Shown: piece by piece, positions 6,471 through 37,843 of the stretch
Layout: the number at the start of each line of letters is the position of its first letter
Position numbering within the stretch: the stretch's first letter is position 1
Source of the DNA: Desulfobacca acetoxidans
GTDB lineage: Bacteria; Desulfobacterota; Desulfobaccia; Desulfobaccales; 0-14-0-80-60-11
Reading direction: 5' to 3'
DNA length: 38,080 bases
Assembly (NCBI GenBank): GCA_020722205.1
Contig: DYLF01000013.1
Location: 1 to 38,080 of the forward strand
Notes under the pieces: model-generated
Told to the model about the DNA's origin: nothing
Database searches by the model: none
What the model saw: only the letters and a program-made list of their open reading frames with translations
Translations under genes and position numbers: made by a program

Positions 6471-7955
6471 ATGATCCAACCGTTATTTGACACCGCGGCG
6501 GCCCCCCATCTGGTAACCCGGGTCAAAGAGTATGTCCTCGCCGAAGGCCTTTTCACCCCCGGCGATCGGGTCCTGGTCGCTGTGTCCGGCGGACCCGATT
6601 CCGTGGCCCTGCTATCTATCCTGCACCGCCTGCAACACGACTTGGGGCTGACCCTGGGAGTGGGTCATTTTGATCACGGCCTTAGGGGACGGGAGTCCCA
6701 GAAGGATGCCGCCTTTGTCACTCAGCTGGCCAAGCAATTAAATCTGCCCTGCCATGGGGGGACAGGGGACGTCCGAGACCACGCCGAGCAGGGCAAAATT
6801 TCCCGGCAAATGGCGGCCCGGCGCCTGCGCCTGGAGTTTCTCAGGAAAACCTGCCGTCTTCAGGGTTACCAGAAAATTGCTTTGGGCCACACCGCGGATG
6901 ACCAGGTGGAGCTATTTTTCCTGCGCTTGCTGCGCGGGGCCGGGCCGGAAGGTTTAAAGGGCATGTGGCCGCTAACGCCCACCGGACTGGTTCGACCGCT
7001 TTTGGCCGTGGGCAAGCAGGTGCTGTTGGCTTGGCTGAAACAGGAGAACCTCGCTTATCGGGAGGATGCCAGTAATTTGAGTACCGTCTATCTGCGCAAC
7101 CGGGTGCGCTTGCACCTTCTGCCCCACCTGGCTGAACAATATAATCCCCGATTGCCTGCCGCGATCTGGCGGCTCATGGCCTTGCTGCAGGATGAAGAGC
7201 GCCTCTTGGCTGCCGAAATGAACCAACAGGTCAGCGGACTGATACAACGCCCCGCCCCGGACCTGCTCATCCTGAAGCTGCCCCAGTTGTTGCCAGCCGC
7301 CCCCGCATTTCAACGGCGGGCCCTGCGTTATGCCTTGGGAGAATTCCGCCGGGATCAGGACATTACTTCTGCCCAGACCGCAGCTCTTTTGGCTCTGGCC
7401 CGGGGGGCGAAAAGCGGCGGCCTCGTCGATTGCCGCGATTGCCTGGTGGCCCGGGCCGGCTCGGAACTGCATTTCCTCAAGCCCTTGCCAGCTTCTTCCC
7501 AAGAAACCCTGACCCTCCCCTCCCCCTCCTCAGATCGCCCGGTCTCGGTGCTCTCCCCCGCTGGCTGGCACTGGCGCTTGGCGCTTCTACCCAGGGTCCA
7601 GACTCAGCCGCCGCCTTCAGACCCCTGGCGGGTCTGGCTGGACGCCGACCGGCTTGCTCTCCCTTTGGCAGTCCGCCATTTCCTTCCGGGAGACCGCTTC
7701 CACCCCCTGGGCGCCCCAGGCCCCCGCAAACTCCAGGACTTCCTGGTGGACTGCAAAGTCCCCCGTTGGCTCCGGCCCTTCCTCCCCCTGGTAACCGCCG
7801 CCGGCCACATCATCTGGCTGCCGGGCCTAAGAATCGCCGACCCTGTGAAGATCACCACCGCTAGTCTTAATGTTCTGGAAATAACCCTTCAGCCGGCCGG
7901 ACCGGAAGCGGAGAGGCTATGGCCGCTCTTCCTGGCCTTTTTCTCCCGCCGGTGA
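6471..7955 (+). CDS. tilS: tRNA(Ile)-lysidine synthetase
   Basis: TilS converts the wobble cytidine of the CAU-anticodon tRNA-Ile to lysidine, so that it reads AUA. The N-type PP-loop SGGPDS is at residues 39-44, followed by VGHFDHGLRG and GHTADDQVELFFLRLLRG, both characteristic of the family. The C-terminal part (about residues 380-480) resembles the TilS tRNA-binding domain, including FLPGDRFHPLGAPGPRKLQDFLVDCKVP. The 494 residues are normal for the long bacterial form. TATAAT at 6383-6388 is a possible -10 element. The gene is essential in most bacteria. Confidence 0.93.
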   Translation: MIQPLFDTAAAPHLVTRVKEYVLAEGLFTPGDRVLVAVSGGPDSVALLSILHRLQHDLGLTLGVGHFDHGLRGRESQKDAAFVTQLAKQLNLPCHGGTGDVRDHAEQGKISRQMAARRLRLEFLRKTCRLQGYQKIALGHTADDQVELFFLRLLRGAGPEGLKGMWPLTPTGLVRPLLAVGKQVLLAWLKQENLAYREDASNLSTVYLRNRVRLHLLPHLAEQYNPRLPAAIWRLMALLQDEERLLAAEMNQQVSGLIQRPAPDLLILKLPQLLPAAPAFQRRALRYALGEFRRDQDITSAQTAALLALARGAKSGGLVDCRDCLVARAGSELHFLKPLPASSQETLTLPSPSSDRPVSVLSPAGWHWRLALLPRVQTQPPPSDPWRVWLDADRLALPLAVRHFLPGDRFHPLGAPGPRKLQDFLVDCKVPRWLRPFLPLVTAAGHIIWLPGLRIADPVKITTASLNVLEITLQPAGPEAERLWPLFLAFFSRR

Positions 7956-18198: not shown

Positions 18199-18804
18199 CT
18201 ACGTCAGGGTAATGACCTGGTCGGCCATTTGCATATGATTGACGATATCCAGCATGTTGGTGGTCTCGCCCACCTCTTTCTCCTCCAGGAGTTGAAAGTG
18301 ATTGAGGCAGGTGCCGCACACCAGCACCTGAACACCTGAAACTTCCAACTCTTGCAGCTCGGCCAGGACTTGGGAACCCCCCACGGCAAGCTTGACCCCG
18401 GCATTGAGCAGCACCAGCCGCCATAGTTCGGGGTACATTTCCTTTAGGGTGCTTATAAAGTTGACCATCAGTTTCCGGCCCAGCTCATCATCCCCCCGCC
18501 CCAGACGGTCGGTGCCCACCACCACCAGAATCTTTTTCTCTTGCACCCCCTCTTTTTCCAACGGCTGAGCCGCACCCTCCGCGACCGCCATTCGGAAGCC
18601 GGAGACGGCGAAATCCTGCCCCTCCTGCCAAATCATGACGCGATACCCGGCGCGCTCCAAAAAGCGCCTGACATTGTCCCGAGCCGCCTCATTGTCCACC
18701 ATGACGGTAACCTGGCCCGCCTCATCGGTGTCGATGAAATCTTTGGTCTTAAGCACCGGCTGCGGACAAGCCAGCCCCCGGCAGTCAAGTCTTCTCTCGT
18801 TCAT
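18199..18804 (-). CDS. yedF: YedF, sulfurtransferase-like selenium metabolism protein
   Basis: A 201-residue two-domain protein. The first about 75 residues are a TusA-like domain (LDCRGLACPQPVLKTKDFI). The second half (from about residue 90) is DsrE-like, with KKILVVVGTDRLGRGDDELGRKLM, LLNAGVKLAV and LVCGTCLNHFQL. YedF is commonly found near selenium genes and is suspected to handle selenide or persulfide; the biochemical role is not settled. It converges on the DsrE2 gene, about 80 bases apart, and closes the sulfur-carrier cluster. No selD or selenoprotein gene is visible in the window. Confidence 0.9.
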   Translation of the reverse strand: MNERRLDCRGLACPQPVLKTKDFIDTDEAGQVTVMVDNEAARDNVRRFLERAGYRVMIWQEGQDFAVSGFRMAVAEGAAQPLEKEGVQEKKILVVVGTDRLGRGDDELGRKLMVNFISTLKEMYPELWRLVLLNAGVKLAVGGSQVLAELQELEVSGVQVLVCGTCLNHFQLLEEKEVGETTNMLDIVNHMQMADQVITLT

Positions 18805-28363: not shown

Positions 28364-29772
28364 CCCGCCCGTCGCCGCGGCCAGAGGTTGTTAAGCAGAT
28401 TGAGGGCCGCCACCCCGCTGGCCACCGCAAAGGCCTGCTGAAAACAGGATAACCCCAGGCACACTCCCGGGCTTAATCTCTGATGGTGTTGACCCGCAAA
28501 CACCATCACCATCAGGGTTACCCCCAAAAGCGACCCCAGATTCTTCAGGGCTGAGTTGGTGCTGGTGGCCAAACCTATCTGGGCCGGTTCAACCTGGCGA
28601 AGTATTTCATTAAGATTAGGAGCCTGAAACAGGCCAAAGCCTAAACCCGTGAGGGCCAGCCTGGCTGCCAGCGTAAAAGTGGTGCTTTCGGGTTTGAGGG
28701 TGAAAAAAGATGCCAGACCGAGAAGTATCAGCACCGACCCCAGCCGCAGGATTCGGAGGTTGCCCAGGCGGTCGGCCAAAAAACCTCCCAGCGGCGACAC
28801 CGTGGCATTGGTGAGGCTCAGGATGGCCAGCAAGAAACCCGCCTGGTCCGACGGATAATGATATACCTGGTCCAACAGGAAGGGGAGCAAGAAGAAGGCC
28901 CCCATCACGCCGGCAAAAGCCAGCACTACAGCCGTTGACCCCAAAACAAAAGACCGGCTGCGCCAGAGTTCCGGGGGCAGCAGGGGCTGATCTGCCCGAC
29001 GCTCCAGAAAAAGCAAAACCACAAACAATATTGCCGCCCCACCCGACAACAGCACCCCCCCCAGCCCTGCCCCACCCATCTGACGGACACGCGTCAAGGC
29101 CAACAGCAGTAACAGGAAAGAGGCGGCCAGCAGAACATTGCCCTTCAGGTCCAGCCTCCGCCAACTCCAGCTGGTGTCGGCGCCGAACCGCAGTAGCGGC
29201 CCGGCCCCCAGCATCAGGGCCAAGGCGCAAAGGGGCAGATTGACAAAAAACACCCACCGCCAACCCAGATAAGCCGTCAGCAGACCCCCCAACGGAGCCC
29301 CCACGCTGATGCCGGCGGCAAAGCCGGTGGAGAGCAGACCCAGGGGCATCCCCCGTTCCCCATCAGCATAGGTCAGCACAATGAGCCTGGGCGCCACCCC
29401 CAACATCAAGGCAGCCCCCAAACCCTGGCAGGCCCGATTGCCCACCAGCCAGGCAAGAGACGGACTCAGTCCGCATAATGCCGACGCCCCGGTAAAAACC
29501 ACCAAACCCGCCAGAAAAACCCGCCCGGTGGGCAGGAGATCCCCCAAGCGCCCGCTGGTGATGAGCATGGAGCCGTTGATCAGCAGGTAAACCACCACCA
29601 CCCAGGATATGTTTTCCAGACTGCTGTGAAAATCATAGCCTATGGCAGGCAGGGCGATATTGACGATGCTGGTGTCGATGGTGGCCATAAAAGCCCCCAA
29701 ACACGCCAGCATCAAAAAACGGCGGCGCCCGACCGTCGCCTGACGGCATGACGGCCAAAGCTCCGGGGTCAC
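28354..29772 (-). CDS. DHA2-type MFS exporter (14-TM)
   Basis: A 472-residue drug:H+ antiporter-2 type transporter of the inner membrane with about 14 hydrophobic segments. Family motifs: FMATIDTSIVNIALPAIG in helix 1 (motif D1), GRLGDLLPTGRVFLAG (motif A), ACQGLGAALMLGVAPRLI (motif B) and GAPLGGLLTAYLGWRWVFFVNLP (motif C). It probably exports a toxic or hydrophobic compound; the substrate is open. Its GTG start overlaps the znuB stop (GTGA), and that junction lies in a heptamer repeat. The gene is bounded on both sides by the same 19-base repeat, which suggests it was inserted into the metal-importer operon. Confidence 0.9.
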   Translation of the reverse strand: MTPELWPSCRQATVGRRRFLMLACLGAFMATIDTSIVNIALPAIGYDFHSSLENISWVVVVYLLINGSMLITSGRLGDLLPTGRVFLAGLVVFTGASALCGLSPSLAWLVGNRACQGLGAALMLGVAPRLIVLTYADGERGMPLGLLSTGFAAGISVGAPLGGLLTAYLGWRWVFFVNLPLCALALMLGAGPLLRFGADTSWSWRRLDLKGNVLLAASFLLLLLALTRVRQMGGAGLGGVLLSGGAAILFVVLLFLERRADQPLLPPELWRSRSFVLGSTAVVLAFAGVMGAFFLLPFLLDQVYHYPSDQAGFLLAILSLTNATVSPLGGFLADRLGNLRILRLGSVLILLGLASFFTLKPESTTFTLAARLALTGLGFGLFQAPNLNEILRQVEPAQIGLATSTNSALKNLGSLLGVTLMVMVFAGQHHQRLSPGVCLGLSCFQQAFAVASGVAALNLLNNLWPRRRAGKQ

Positions 29773-30587
29773 GGCTTACGGCTCACTGCTCGCCCCCCCC
29801 ATAGTTGGGAAGCCAAAAAAACCAGGGACAACAGCAACACCACCGTGGCCCCGGATGGCCAATCGACAGCATAGGATATCCCCAGACCGCCCAGGGTGGA
29901 GATCATGGCGGCGGCGGCCGAGACCATCGTCATGCACCCGATGCGCTGAGTAAAATTGCGTCCCACCGCGCCGGGTATCACCAACAAGGCAGACACCAAA
30001 ATAATGCCCACTAGATAGATGGAAACCACAATTACCAGCGCCATGAGAACCAAAAAAAGACAACGCAAGGCCGTGACCGGCACCCCGCTGACCCAGGCCA
30101 TCTCCTCATCAAAGCTCATAAACACCAGTTCTTTGAAAAAGGCGGCTAGCGCTGCCAGGACGACAAAGGTGACCAAGAAGATTTGCACCAGTTGTCTTTC
30201 CCCGATGGCCAGGATGTTGCCGAAGAGGAAACCAAAGACGTCCACATTATATGTTCTCGATAAATGTATAAAAATCACCCCCAGGGCCATGGAGGCGGCA
30301 AAAAAGATGCCGATGGCCGCGTCCTCCTCTAATCGCCCTCGGCGGGACGTCCATTCAATGGCCAACGCCACCAGCACCGAAAACCCTACCCCGGTGAAAA
30401 GCGGGTCAACGCCCATTAAAAATCCCAGGGCCACCCCGCCGAACGCCGAATGAGAAATGCCCACCCCGATGAAGGCCAGCCTCCGCAGGATGATAAAGAC
30501 CGAAAGCAGACCGCCGAGACAGCTTAACAGCAGGCCGGCCACCAAGGCCCTCTGGAAAAAACCCAGTCCCAGCACCTCACATATCAT
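29769..30587 (-). CDS. znuB: Zinc/manganese ABC transporter permease
   Basis: A 272-residue inner-membrane permease of the ABC-3 family. About eight hydrophobic segments are seen, with the family blocks AFIGVGISHSAFGGVALGFLMGVDPLFTG, DAAIGIFFAASMALGVIFI and GIILVSALLVIPGAVGRNFTQR. Zinc and manganese importers cannot be separated by the permease alone. The ATG at 30587 overlaps the end of znuC by 11 bases; a start at 30695 would lie deep inside znuC. The last residues (AVSRKP) come from a heptamer repeat and are not conserved. Confidence 0.9.
   Translation of the reverse strand: MICEVLGLGFFQRALVAGLLLSCLGGLLSVFIILRRLAFIGVGISHSAFGGVALGFLMGVDPLFTGVGFSVLVALAIEWTSRRGRLEEDAAIGIFFAASMALGVIFIHLSRTYNVDVFGFLFGNILAIGERQLVQIFLVTFVVLAALAAFFKELVFMSFDEEMAWVSGVPVTALRCLFLVLMALVIVVSIYLVGIILVSALLVIPGAVGRNFTQRIGCMTMVSAAAAMISTLGGLGISYAVDWPSGATVVLLLSLVFLASQLWGGRAVSRKP
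29772..29792. repeat. Heptamer run at the znuB/MFS junction
   Basis: Units CGGCTTA, CGGCTCA and CTGCTCG are adjacent. The minus-strand reading forms the last codons of znuB and the GTGA overlap with the MFS gene. The first 19 bases match 28343-28361 exactly. Confidence 0.65.
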
Positions 30588-31356
30588 GGCTCCGCACCAC
30601 CCGATGGGGAATTTCCCCATGAAAAAGGTATTCCACGCTGCAGCCGAAGGTGCTCTCGAGAGCCAACCGACCGATGGGAGGGGGCTGATGCACATGCACC
30701 CGACGGTTCAGACAGACAATATCATCCACATGCGTAACCACCGCCCCGATGTCATGGGAAACCATTATCACCGTCAACTGCAATTCTTCTTTTAGTCGCT
30801 GGATTAATTCATAGAGTTCGTCTTGCAGGCAGGCGTCCAGGGACACCATGGGCTCATCCAACAGCAACAGGCGAGGTTCCACCGAGAGGGCGCGGGCGAT
30901 AAAGACCCGCTGCTGTTCGCCGCCAGACAACTCCCCAATGGGCCGGTGGGCCAAATGCGCCATGCCCAACCGGGCCAGGTTGTCCCAGGCAATCTGTCGG
31001 TCACGGCGACTCGGACGTGAAAGCATCCCCATCACTCCATACCGGCCCATGAGCACCACCTCCAGAACAGACACCGGAAAGTGGGGGTTGCTCAGCGGAC
31101 GTTGCGGCAGATAACCCACTCGGCGCCCTTGACGCCGCAGCTGCCACGGAGTTTCGCCGAACACCAAAATCCCCCCCGCACTGGGCTTCACCAATCCCAG
31201 AATGACTTTCAACAGGGTGCTTTTGCCGGCCCCGTTGGGACCCAGCACCCCCACAAAGTGCCCCTCCTGAATGTCCAGAGTGATGTCCTCCAGAATGGGC
31301 ACCCGGTTATAATTTACATCCAGATGCCTGATCTTAATAACCACCGTCTCCGTCAA
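30577..31356 (-). CDS. znuC: Zinc/manganese ABC transporter ATP-binding protein
   Basis: A 259-residue ABC ATPase. Walker A is GPNGAGKST, the signature is LSGGEQQRVFIARAL, Walker B is LLLLDEP, and the switch His is in VSHDI. The C-terminal extension (DDIVCLNRRVHVHQPPP onward) is usual for metal-importer ATPases of this group. It energises uptake by ZnuB. The start is a TTG at 31356 with AGAGG 8 bases upstream. It lies between znuA and znuB in a tight operon. Confidence 0.92.
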   Translation of the reverse strand: MTETVVIKIRHLDVNYNRVPILEDITLDIQEGHFVGVLGPNGAGKSTLLKVILGLVKPSAGGILVFGETPWQLRRQGRRVGYLPQRPLSNPHFPVSVLEVVLMGRYGVMGMLSRPSRRDRQIAWDNLARLGMAHLAHRPIGELSGGEQQRVFIARALSVEPRLLLLDEPMVSLDACLQDELYELIQRLKEELQLTVIMVSHDIGAVVTHVDDIVCLNRRVHVHQPPPIGRLALESTFGCSVEYLFHGEIPHRVVRSHDM

Positions 31357-31397
31357 GTCTCAAACCTCTGGCCTCTTCCCTCTTGGCCTTTGCCTTA

Positions 31398-32369
31398 TTA
31401 TCGCATCGCCTCAAGCATATTGCTCAGGTTGTGGCGCATCAGGGCCAGATAGTCCCCCCCATACGGCGGGACCCCTCCCAGTGGATCCAGCAGCACCACT
31501 TTAGCTCCGGCTTCCTTGGCTATCACCTCCGCCACTCTGGGATTGAGCTGAGGTTCGGCAAATACCGCCTTCACCCCTGAGAAGCGGATGGCTTGCACAA
31601 TCCTTTGTATCTGCCGGGGCGTAGGTTCCCGACCCGGAGAAAGTTCAATCACCCCTGCCTCCCGCAAGTGATAACGCCGGGCAAAGTAGGCAAAGGCCGG
31701 ATGAAAACAGACATATTCCCGCCGCCGGAAGGTTTGCACCTGGGCACTAATCTCCTGATGTAATTTTTCCAATTCCTTCACATAAGCCGCCAGATTGGCC
31801 TCATAAACCTGCCGATGCAAGGGGTCCAATTCCATCAGGGCTTGCCCCACCCGGCGACAGATATCCTGCACCAAAACCGGGTCCAGCCACACGTGCGGGT
31901 TGCCTCCCATATGATGCTCCTCGTGCTCTAAATAACTCTTCCCAACCCCACCCGGGTCACGGTGCTGATGGTTCTGCTCTTCCACCCCCTGGATCAATTC
32001 CAAACCCCACACTGCTTCCACCCCCCTCAGATTCTTAGCCGCCTGACTCTTCAAGAGCCTTTCGGCCCAGGGGTCCAAGCCACCCCCCACGTAAACGAAG
32101 AGACGGGCAGCCAAGGCCTGCGCCACCGCAGAAGGGGTTGGTTCAAAAACATGGGGGCTGGCCCCCGGGGGGATGAGCACCTGCACCCTTACCCGTTCTC
32201 CCCCGATCTTTTGACAAAAATCCCCCAGGGGAAGAATGCTGGCCGCCACCGGGATGCGGGCCGACCCGCCTGCAGCCGATGAAACTCCAACCAGCAAAAG
32301 CCATCCCAGGCCAATCACCAGAAACGCCCTGAGCCGTAAACCGTAAACCGTAAGCCGTCGCCAGCTCAT
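31398..32369 (-). CDS. znuA: Zinc/manganese ABC transporter substrate-binding protein
   Basis: A 323-residue periplasmic cluster-9 binding protein. The signal peptide (AFLVIGLGWLLLVGVSSAAGG) follows a non-conserved basic start. Metal ligands are expected in GASPHVFEPTPS, NPHVWLDPV and CFHPAFAYFARRYHL. The loop NHQHRDPGG...YLEHEEHHMGG is histidine-rich, as in zinc-binding members, so zinc is favoured over manganese. The ATG at 32369 has GGAGG 8 bases upstream; a TTG at 32384 overlaps that site. The n-region is encoded by four tandem heptamers (32331-32358). It heads znuA-znuC-znuB-MFS. Confidence 0.92.
   Translation of the reverse strand: MSWRRLTVYGLRLRAFLVIGLGWLLLVGVSSAAGGSARIPVAASILPLGDFCQKIGGERVRVQVLIPPGASPHVFEPTPSAVAQALAARLFVYVGGGLDPWAERLLKSQAAKNLRGVEAVWGLELIQGVEEQNHQHRDPGGVGKSYLEHEEHHMGGNPHVWLDPVLVQDICRRVGQALMELDPLHRQVYEANLAAYVKELEKLHQEISAQVQTFRRREYVCFHPAFAYFARRYHLREAGVIELSPGREPTPRQIQRIVQAIRFSGVKAVFAEPQLNPRVAEVIAKEAGAKVVLLDPLGGVPPYGGDYLALMRHNLSNMLEAMR
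32331..32358. repeat. Four tandem heptamers in the znuA signal-peptide region
   Basis: GAGCCGT, AAACCGT, AAACCGT and AAGCCGT are adjacent and encode RLTVYGLRLR of the ZnuA n-region. Gain or loss of a unit would shift the frame between the start codon and the signal peptide. Confidence 0.7.
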
Positions 32370-32754
32370 AATCCGCACCTCCAACTAATCAACCCCCTTA
32401 CCCCCTTACCCTAATCCCCATAAAAGCAGAAAAAAATACCCGCTGGACGATAATGAAAATTGGTGCGCAAACCTATGCGCCTTTAAAATACTATTTTCCC
32501 GCCGGAGTTGCAATTTCAAGGTTTATCCCAAGTAACCCGCCGGTTCTTAATAAAAAAAGGCAAAATGCCGAATTAAAGTAGGGTCAGGAAAAAAATTTCT
32601 CTGCCCATCTATCCCAAAGTTTGTCTATATGGTAACTAATAAATCAAAACTTTGCCGTGACCGACTGGCCGCCCTGCCCCCCCCGATTTGCAGCAAGCAG
32701 CAGGGTGGATAAACCAAAATCTTCCTAGCTAGCCACCAGGAAAAGACCACAAGC
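32370..32754. other. Intergenic region between znuA and the sensor kinase
   Basis: About 385 bases without a gene, AT-rich. It contains a run of ACCCCCTT-like units (32390-32410), GATAATGAAAAT (32449-32460), which resembles half of a Fur-family box and might take part in Zur or Fur control of znuA, and a small inverted repeat GCGCA/TGCGC (32465-32480). The divergent promoters cannot be placed with confidence. Confidence 0.4.
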
Positions 32755-36120: not shown

Positions 36121-36642
36121 ATGTATTCCCAAATCGTCATGGACCATTTTAAAAACCCCCGCAACGTGGGAGAACTCGCTGATGCCGACGGGATCGGCGA
36201 AGTCGGCAACCCCGTCTGTGGCGACATGATGAATATCTTCATCAAAGTGAAAGACAATCGCATCGAGGATATCAAATTCAAGACCTTCGGCTGCGGGGCG
36301 GCCATCGCGGTGTCCAGCATGATTACCGAAATGGCCAAAGGTAAGACCCTGGAGGAGGCCATGAAGATCACCAATCAGGACGTGGCCGAAGCCTTGGGAA
36401 ATCTGCCCAAAAACAAGCTGCACTGCTCCAACCTGGGAGCCGACGCCCTGCACTCCGCCATAAAAAACTACCTGGACCGCAAGACCGGTAAAATCAAGGA
36501 CCTGGATTGGGACCGCCAAGCCCACCTCAAAGGCTCAGGCCCGGAAGGCTGCTACTGCCCATATTGTCAGAAAAAAATCGAAGAAGAATCCCCCTTCTGT
36601 GTCTTCTGCGGCAGCGAAATACCCCACGAACATGATCACTAA
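36121..36642 (+). CDS. nifU: NifU/IscU-type Fe-S scaffold with C-terminal zinc ribbon
   Basis: A 173-residue scaffold protein on which Fe-S clusters are assembled. The IscU-like domain carries the three cluster cysteines: Cys33 in NPVCGD, Cys58 in TFGCGAAIA and Cys102 in KLHCSNLG, with the neighbouring Asp35. An added C-terminal region has C-x2-C (residues 146 and 149) and C-x2-C (160 and 163), a zinc-ribbon pattern, and ends in HEHDH. It precedes a NifS homologue by about 30 bases. The ATG has AAGGAG 7-8 bases upstream. Confidence 0.93.
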   Translation: MYSQIVMDHFKNPRNVGELADADGIGEVGNPVCGDMMNIFIKVKDNRIEDIKFKTFGCGAAIAVSSMITEMAKGKTLEEAMKITNQDVAEALGNLPKNKLHCSNLGADALHSAIKNYLDRKTGKIKDLDWDRQAHLKGSGPEGCYCPYCQKKIEEESPFCVFCGSEIPHEHDH

Positions 36643-36673: not shown

Positions 36674-37843
36674 ATGAAAACCATCTATTTGGACCATCTC
36701 GCCGCCACCCCTCTGCACCCCAAGGTGAAAGAGGCTATGATCCAGCATATCAACACCATCTACGGCAACCCGGTGGCTGATTATTCCCTCGGCCAGCAGG
36801 CCGGCCAGGTCCTGGAACAGGCCCGGCTCCAGGTGGCCGACCTCATTAACGCCGACCCCAACGAGATCGTCTTTACCTCGGGCGGCACTGAGTCGGTCAA
36901 CCATGCCATCAAAGGGGTGGCTATCGCCTTGCGGGAGCGGGGCCGCCGTATCATCACCTCCAACATCGAACATAAGTCCGTCCTCAACTCCCTACGAACT
37001 CTGCGCCTCCTGGACTATCAGGTCACCTCTCTGGATGTGGATAATTACGGCCTGGTGGATCCGGCCGCAGTGGAAAAGGCCATCACCCAGGATACCATCC
37101 TCATCAGCCTCATGCTGGCCAACAACGAGATCGGCACCATTGAACCCATCAGGGACATCGCCAAGATCGCCCAAAAACACCAGGTGGTATTCCATACCGA
37201 CGCAGTGGACGCAGTTGGGGTGATCCCGGTCGACGTCAAAGACCTGGGGGTGAATCTCCTCTCTCTGGCGGCTAATATCTTTTATGGCCCCCCCGGGGTG
37301 GGAGCCCTTTACATCAAGAAAGGCACCCCGGTTTGGCCCTTGTTGGACGGCGGCATGCAGGAAAACAAGCGCCGGGCCGGCACCGAAAACCTCATCGGCC
37401 TCGTCGGCCTGGGAGTGGCCGCCGACCTGGCCCGCCTCGAAATGCCCGCCCGCCTGCCGCACCTTCAAGCCCTAAAAGAGCGCCTGACCAGAGGACTGTG
37501 GGAGCGGATTCCGGACATCCAGATTAACGGCCACCCTAATCAGTGCCTGCCCCATCTGGTCTCCGTCTCCATCAAATACGTCGAGGGCGAAAGCCTGATG
37601 CTGATGCTGGACGAAGAAGGCATCTGCGTTGCCACGCGCTCAGCCTGTGCCTCCGGCTCGCTCAGGGCCTCCCACGTCCTCATCGCCACCGGCCTGGACT
37701 TTGCCACCGCCCAGGGCACCCTCCTTTTCAGCTTCGGGCGGGACAATACCGAGGCGGATGTGGACAAGGTCCTGGACGTTCTGCCGCCTATCGTCCAAAA
37801 ACTGAGGGAAATGTCACCACTCTATAAGAAAATAAATCTGTAA
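36674..37843 (+). CDS. nifS: NifS/IscS-like cysteine desulfurase homologue lacking the PLP lysine
   Basis: A 389-residue class V aminotransferase-fold protein. It matches NifS/IscS along its length: YLDHLAATPLHP, SGGTESVNHAIKG, His100 in SNIEHKSVLNSL, Asp176 in FHTDAVDAVG, RRAGTEN and the catalytic Cys325 in TRSACASGS. The cofactor segment reads SLAANIFYGPPGVGALY where IscS has the form S-x-S/A-x-HK-x-YGPKG. The HK pair is replaced by Asn201-Ile202 (bases 37274-37279), so the Schiff-base lysine is absent; the usual Gln near Asp176 is Asp179. Desulfurase activity is therefore doubtful. The start at 36674 is chosen for its AGGA site and conserved N-terminus; ATG 36632 overlapping nifU is less likely. 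Confidence 0.88.
   Translation: MKTIYLDHLAATPLHPKVKEAMIQHINTIYGNPVADYSLGQQAGQVLEQARLQVADLINADPNEIVFTSGGTESVNHAIKGVAIALRERGRRIITSNIEHKSVLNSLRTLRLLDYQVTSLDVDNYGLVDPAAVEKAITQDTILISLMLANNEIGTIEPIRDIAKIAQKHQVVFHTDAVDAVGVIPVDVKDLGVNLLSLAANIFYGPPGVGALYIKKGTPVWPLLDGGMQENKRRAGTENLIGLVGLGVAADLARLEMPARLPHLQALKERLTRGLWERIPDIQINGHPNQCLPHLVSVSIKYVEGESLMLMLDEEGICVATRSACASGSLRASHVLIATGLDFATAQGTLLFSFGRDNTEADVDKVLDVLPPIVQKLREMSPLYKKINL

Follow-up and report, generated by a model that had tools for sequence, protein, structure and literature searches.

The window, a 38,080-nucleotide stretch of DNA from Desulfobacca acetoxidans, carries two adjacent genes on the forward strand. The first, nifU (36121-36642, +), encodes a 173-amino-acid IscU-type Fe-S scaffold with a C-terminal zinc ribbon. 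The second, nifS (36674-37843, +), lies 31 bp downstream and encodes, in an intact frame, a 389-amino-acid protein of the NifS/IscS fold that lacks the expected lysine, as evidenced by its translation, its match to Pfam Aminotran_5 (class-V aminotransferase; 247 bits), and an AlphaFold2 model. NifU matches Pfam NifU_N with 169.5 bits and passes NCBIfam TIGR03419 (200.5 versus a cut-off of 187.9); NifS scores under the NifS/IscS equivalog cut-offs of NCBIfam (TIGR03402, 477.8 versus 530.75; TIGR02006, 361.1 versus 643.2). An earlier note, made from the sequence alone, had described an extra zinc ribbon on the scaffold, and this is borne out by a Zn_Ribbon_1 match of 25.4 bits against a cut-off of 25. 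The ribbon motif, CYCPYC-x10-CxxC, spans NifU residues 144 to 163 (36550-36609, +), and its cysteines (Cys146, Cys149, Cys160, and Cys163, in the C-terminal CxCPYC...CxxC) are invariant in the family alignment. Likewise, the scaffold residues Cys33, Asp35, Cys58, and Cys102 are invariant across 29 aligned relatives.

The cofactor loop of NifS, SLAANIFYG (37262-37288, +), lies within residues 197 to 213, which read SLAANIFYGPPGVGALY. Where the canonical loop is S-x-S-A/G-H-K, window NifS has S-L-A-A-N-I, and the note was right that the His-Lys pair has become Asn-Ile (37274-37279): Asn201 (AAT, 37274-37276) and Ile202 (ATC, 37277-37279) stand where all 58 canonical rows of the alignment have His and Lys. 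The elements that the note described as persisting, namely, the catalytic cysteine loop with Cys325 (37646-37648, +), His100, Asp176, and the RRAGTEN segment, are all present. The AlphaFold2 model of NifS (mean pLDDT, 91.5) has the IscS fold, with Z values of about 51 to 55 versus NFS1, IscS, and A. fulgidus IscS, and loop 321-330, which holds Cys325, has low pLDDT, which we read as mobility. The NifU model contains an ordinary IscU domain. A fold search using the whole NifU model as the query matched the IscU domain alone among the matches listed, and the closest PDB chain to NifU is 4eb5_C, the A. fulgidus IscU. Models of this kind say nothing about the activity of either protein.

Scanning genome contigs for relatives of window NifS identified 80 loci. 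All relatives with at least 54% identity that cover the loop lack the lysine, and they belong to Desulfobaccales-like and other deltaproteobacterial or proteobacterial MAGs; relatives at about 51% identity and lower have His-Lys, the sole exception being L048, with His-Arg. Sampling was widened by searching 395 Desulfobacterota genomes, from which 60 more regions were retrieved, and the Lys-less set grew to 84 distinct sequences, each drawn from a separate assembly or assemblies. Because dN/dS among close family pairs is 0.05 to 0.22, the Lys-less genes are working genes under purifying selection. An explanation by gene decay or by a fault in sequencing or assembly, to which we give a negligible probability, is ruled out by the 84 relatives, these dN/dS values, and the intact frame, and the note's argument against random decay holds.

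Phylogenetic analyses argue that the bacterial Lys-less family is monophyletic, with one origin. In a quick tree made from all columns, a single branch with a support of 96 split off 61 Lys-less rows, among them A. fulgidus IscS (whose sequence in the trees is that of 4eb5, identical at 382/382 residues). When the cofactor-loop, Gln, and Cys-loop columns were removed, 40 bacterial rows were recovered together at 99/93, or at 86/62 with A. fulgidus added, and when every trait column was removed, the bacterial (Desulfobacterota) Lys-less clade had a support of 99/97. The free tree from which all trait columns were removed has two changes, yet a single clade that includes A. fulgidus IscS is not rejected (AU p value, 0.63), so that common descent of the archaeal protein with the bacterial clade is neither demonstrated nor refuted by the trees. 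L048, which is verrucomicrobial, groups with the Lys-less rows in the quick tree and was excluded from the careful trees. Another unusual protein, L182 (genome G128), retains the histidine, has Gln in place of Lys, and reads STC instead of SAC; L048 and L182 are possible separate or intermediate losses. There is also a deviating Lys-less type (L165, L179, and L185), with the loops SGISLG, NGPALAG, or SGPALG and the Cys loop NTGSACASKALKT, and genome G373 carries both the deviating and the main types.

When 59 rows from the family were set against 58 that bear the lysine, five positions that are 98 to 100% fixed in the Lys-bearing class proved to have changed jointly: the lysine, the preceding histidine, Gln179, Thr11, and Arg351. 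The note had mentioned only the first two. Across the family, the lysine position is occupied by Gln (59%), Pro (22%), Thr (7%), Ser (5%), Ile (3%), or Ala (3%), and the histidine position is Asn in 88% of rows. At position 179, where a glutamine faces PLP (98% in the Lys-bearing class), family members have Ala, Asp, Val, or Thr, and window NifS has Asp179 (37208-37210, +). Position 11 (Thr in 100% of the Lys-bearing class) is Ala in window NifS, and position 351 (Arg in 100%) is Val, Leu, or Ile in the family, with Leu351 (37724-37726, +) in window NifS. By homology, position 351 would be the site of the substrate-carboxylate arginine, an assignment for which we take the arginine of SufS to be the second homologue. 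The first is the T. onnurineus desulfurase, in which Arg371 binds the carboxylate (PMC5426080). Compared with canonical NifS/IscS/NFS1, therefore, the family has the same fold, Cys loop, and IscU partner but is without the Schiff-base Lys, the His, the Gln, and the substrate Arg.

Cys325 is present in 100% of Lys-less and Lys-bearing rows alike and is retained by every family member, TSGGTES is largely retained, and a C-terminal SPLY segment is conserved, with S381 and P382 invariant. Despite the loss of the Lys, His, Gln, and Arg, His100 and Asp176 are 100% conserved in the Lys-less family. The equivalents of these two residues hold PLP in active enzymes, and the pocket that they form in the family may hold another ligand. 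It is conceivable, although we consider it quite unlikely, that the protein is still an active enzyme that binds PLP non-covalently (via the phosphate loop together with His100 and Asp176) or has some other ligand in its pocket and retains a desulfurase or lyase reaction. In favor of such an enzyme are the full conservation of His100 and Asp176, the largely kept TSGGTES, and PDB entry 4hvk, in whose title the A. fulgidus protein figures as an "unusual" L-cysteine desulfurase, but it would have to work without the Lys, His, and Gln expected to contact PLP and without the substrate Arg. No replacement lysine specific to the family was found among the 59 and 58 rows, and two lysines conserved in the family, Lys80 and Lys89, are frequent in Lys-bearing NifS as well. 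The note's idea of another cofactor anchor is thus less supported, the PLP and substrate contact residues having changed together, and A. fulgidus IscS is reported to be inactive (PMC7585200).

The closest characterized protein to the family is A. fulgidus IscS (probable cysteine desulfurase 2; PDB 4eb5, 4eb7, and 4hvk, with 4r5f being the D199K mutant). A. fulgidus, too, is a sulfate reducer. At the five positions, A. fulgidus IscS has Asp for Lys, Asn for His, Ala for Gln, Ala for Thr11, and Leu for Arg. Like window NifS, it has lost the Lys and His (Asn-Asp there, Asn-Ile here), the Gln, and the Arg, has Ala at position 11, and has kept the Cys; it also has an IscU-scaffold partner, the closest PDB relative of window NifU. 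Unlike window NifS, it is archaeal, the two proteins are about 40% identical, and its IscU has no zinc ribbon. A published account, citing Marinoni (2012), Pagnier (2014), and Yamanaka (2013), reports that A. fulgidus IscS has no desulfurase activity, the Lys being Asp, and that one of its cysteines serves as a ligand of the IscU-bound [2Fe-2S] cluster (PMC7585200). M. acetivorans IscS1 is likewise reported to lack the catalytic Lys (PMC7585200) and by that description resembles the family, although it comes from a methanogen.

The note had proposed asking whether Lys-less NifS proteins form a clade linked to zinc-ribbon NifU genes, and both parts of that proposal hold. A two-CxxC NifU tail is found in 71 of the 80 Lys-less NifS with an adjoining NifU, and 6 more of these 80 have a Cys-containing tail outside the strict pattern. 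On inspection, a ribbon of that kind was found on 0 of 30 NifU beside Lys-bearing NifS; the one formal two-CxxC match among these 30 pairs, L041, resembles an Nfu-type CxxC. In gut Clostridia (Flavonifractor and relatives; L033, L034, L036, and L062), the NifU beside a Lys-bearing NifS has a short, Cys-rich tail (e.g., CDCEEGHCCSSCG) that differs from the zinc ribbon. Because L179, L182, and L048 are Lys-less yet pair with a NifU without a ribbon, the link is strong without being absolute. In the deviating type, L165 and L185 have a nearby NifU with a CxxC tail. The gene order is nifU-nifS in the window's group and nifS-nifU in a second group. Strict pairing with NifU, together with the conserved SPLY segment and its invariant S381 and P382, might also be expected of a purely structural or regulatory partner that stabilizes or gates NifU and leaves the cluster untouched. 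We regard this as highly unlikely, since it does not predict a 100% conserved Cys325 and loop, and no direct evidence was found for the scaffold regulator that the note had suggested.

The rest of the window's genome, which is 99.97% complete, bears on which proteins work together. It encodes one NifU_N protein, the NifU beside the Lys-less NifS, as well as one SUFBD protein, and dsrA is present. One other NifS-like protein (L002) has His-Lys, differs in its Cys loop, and is not encoded beside a nifU, and a third Aminotran_5 protein (L085), considered as a second desulfurase, was rejected since its sequence reads as that of an alanine-glyoxylate-type aminotransferase. Because the NifU_N protein is the sole one, L002 is unpaired with nifU, and L085 does not read as a desulfurase, the Lys-less NifS is the natural partner of the genome's only NifU/IscU-type scaffold. 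The pair resembles MIS (minimal ISC) in consisting of two genes, without a carrier, and one full-length HSP70 was found in the genome and no second; MIS as described, however, includes a cysteine desulfurase, whereas window NifS lacks residues expected of one. The window also encodes FdhD (780-1682, -) and TilS (6471-7955, +). FdhD normally receives sulfur from an IscS, and so here it would need L002 or another source.

A fused TusA and DsrE protein (18199-18804, -) is a possible sulfur carrier. Together with L002, it brings up a persulfide shuttle, in which Cys325 would accept sulfane sulfur from a separate source (the candidates being L002, polysulfide, or a carrier of the TusA/DsrE type) and pass it to NifU in the manner of SufE, not as a ligand. 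The retention of Cys325, the mobile loop, and His100, a residue with a possible part in persulfide chemistry, would suit such a role, and candidate donors are at hand in the genome and the window; however, L002 adjoins no nifU, a large IscS fold is unnecessary for shuttling, and the A. fulgidus precedent (PMC7585200) favors ligand donation. On balance, we find a shuttle unlikely.

The lifestyle of the organisms offers another line of evidence. In the Desulfobacterota sample, dsrA was found in 60 of 70 genomes with the Lys-less family versus 130 of 325 others, for which classification was incomplete. The nifU-nifS pair immediately precedes a co-oriented dsrA in three genomes (G167/L106, G125/L120, and G177/L133); in L133, nifS and dsrA are 10 bp apart and a dsrB-like frame comes next. 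Fisher tests on the ribbon and dsr links take no account of phylogeny, and because the Lys-less proteins of bacteria form a clade with a single origin, few independent events stand behind either link. A Dsr lifestyle explains the loss of the lysine only in part: many dsrA-positive genomes keep a Lys-bearing NifS with a modular NifU. Since this is the arrangement in most checked dsrA-positive genomes without a close family member, sulfidogenesis permits the loss of the lysine but does not force it.

We propose that NifS is a non-enzymatic, ligand-donating partner of NifU that assembles clusters from sulfide, a reading that we hold to be reasonably probable. The NifS/IscS-fold protein would no longer be a cysteine desulfurase and would presumably be inactive and free of PLP. 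It would form a complex with the NifU scaffold, where the Cys325 thiolate would be donated as a ligand to a nascent [2Fe-2S] cluster on Cys33, Cys58, and Cys102 (with Asp35). The sulfur would come not from cysteine but from sulfide, which is plentiful in dissimilatory sulfate reducers, and the zinc ribbon of NifU may be a co-inherited accessory for docking, metal handling, or client transfer. A mechanism like that of A. fulgidus seems most likely because the residue changes are shared, the loop Cys and the scaffold residues are kept, and the closest IscU in the PDB is from A. fulgidus. The PLP-independent partner of the scaffold that the note had offered as one option would accordingly seem the best of its readings. 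Several observations count against ligand donation: the 100% conservation of His100 and Asp176 would be odd for an empty pocket, L002 could supply sulfur, the retention of Lys-bearing NifS in many dsrA-positive genomes indicates that sulfide supply alone is insufficient to account for the loss, and few independent evolutionary events underlie the ribbon and dsr links.

The conservation of the NifU/Lys-less NifS pair across many sulfate reducers suggests that clusters are built from sulfide, not cysteine. Sulfide as a sulfur source has in vivo support in the unrelated SMS machine, which resembles the NifU-NifS pair in the sulfide use that is proposed for the latter but has SmsCB, not IscU (PMC12192291). 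We also posit, with a little less than even confidence, a sulfide-using Fe-S branch across sulfate-reducing Desulfobacterota, in which NifS is purely a ligand donor and the scaffold has gained a ribbon, sometimes beside dsrAB. If so, co-clustering with dsrAB would couple sulfide production with cluster building, and sulfide, iron, or some other ligand might sit in the pocket formed by His100 and Asp176.

The general view is that cysteine supplies the sulfur for bacterial NIF/ISC machines. Here, a presumed sulfur donor is without its cofactor and substrate residues and, in one genome, is paired with the only NifU. A search of the open-access literature for bacterial Lys-less NifS or zinc-ribbon NifU found nothing relevant; the ligand-donor mechanism is already known in archaea, and the bacterial family, its zinc-ribbon partner, and the Dsr link appear to be undescribed. 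A. fulgidus IscS would move from an archaeal curiosity to one case of a broad class, and direct cluster building from sulfide in sulfidic habitats becomes testable in bacteria. The automatic label "cysteine desulfurase" is probably wrong for Lys-less proteins.

Finally, about 4 kb upstream of nifU, the window encodes a ZnuA-type binding protein, an ABC ATPase, and an ABC-3 permease (29769-32384, -). This transporter is for metal uptake, with zinc as its probable substrate, and its closeness to a zinc-ribbon nifU is probably a coincidence.
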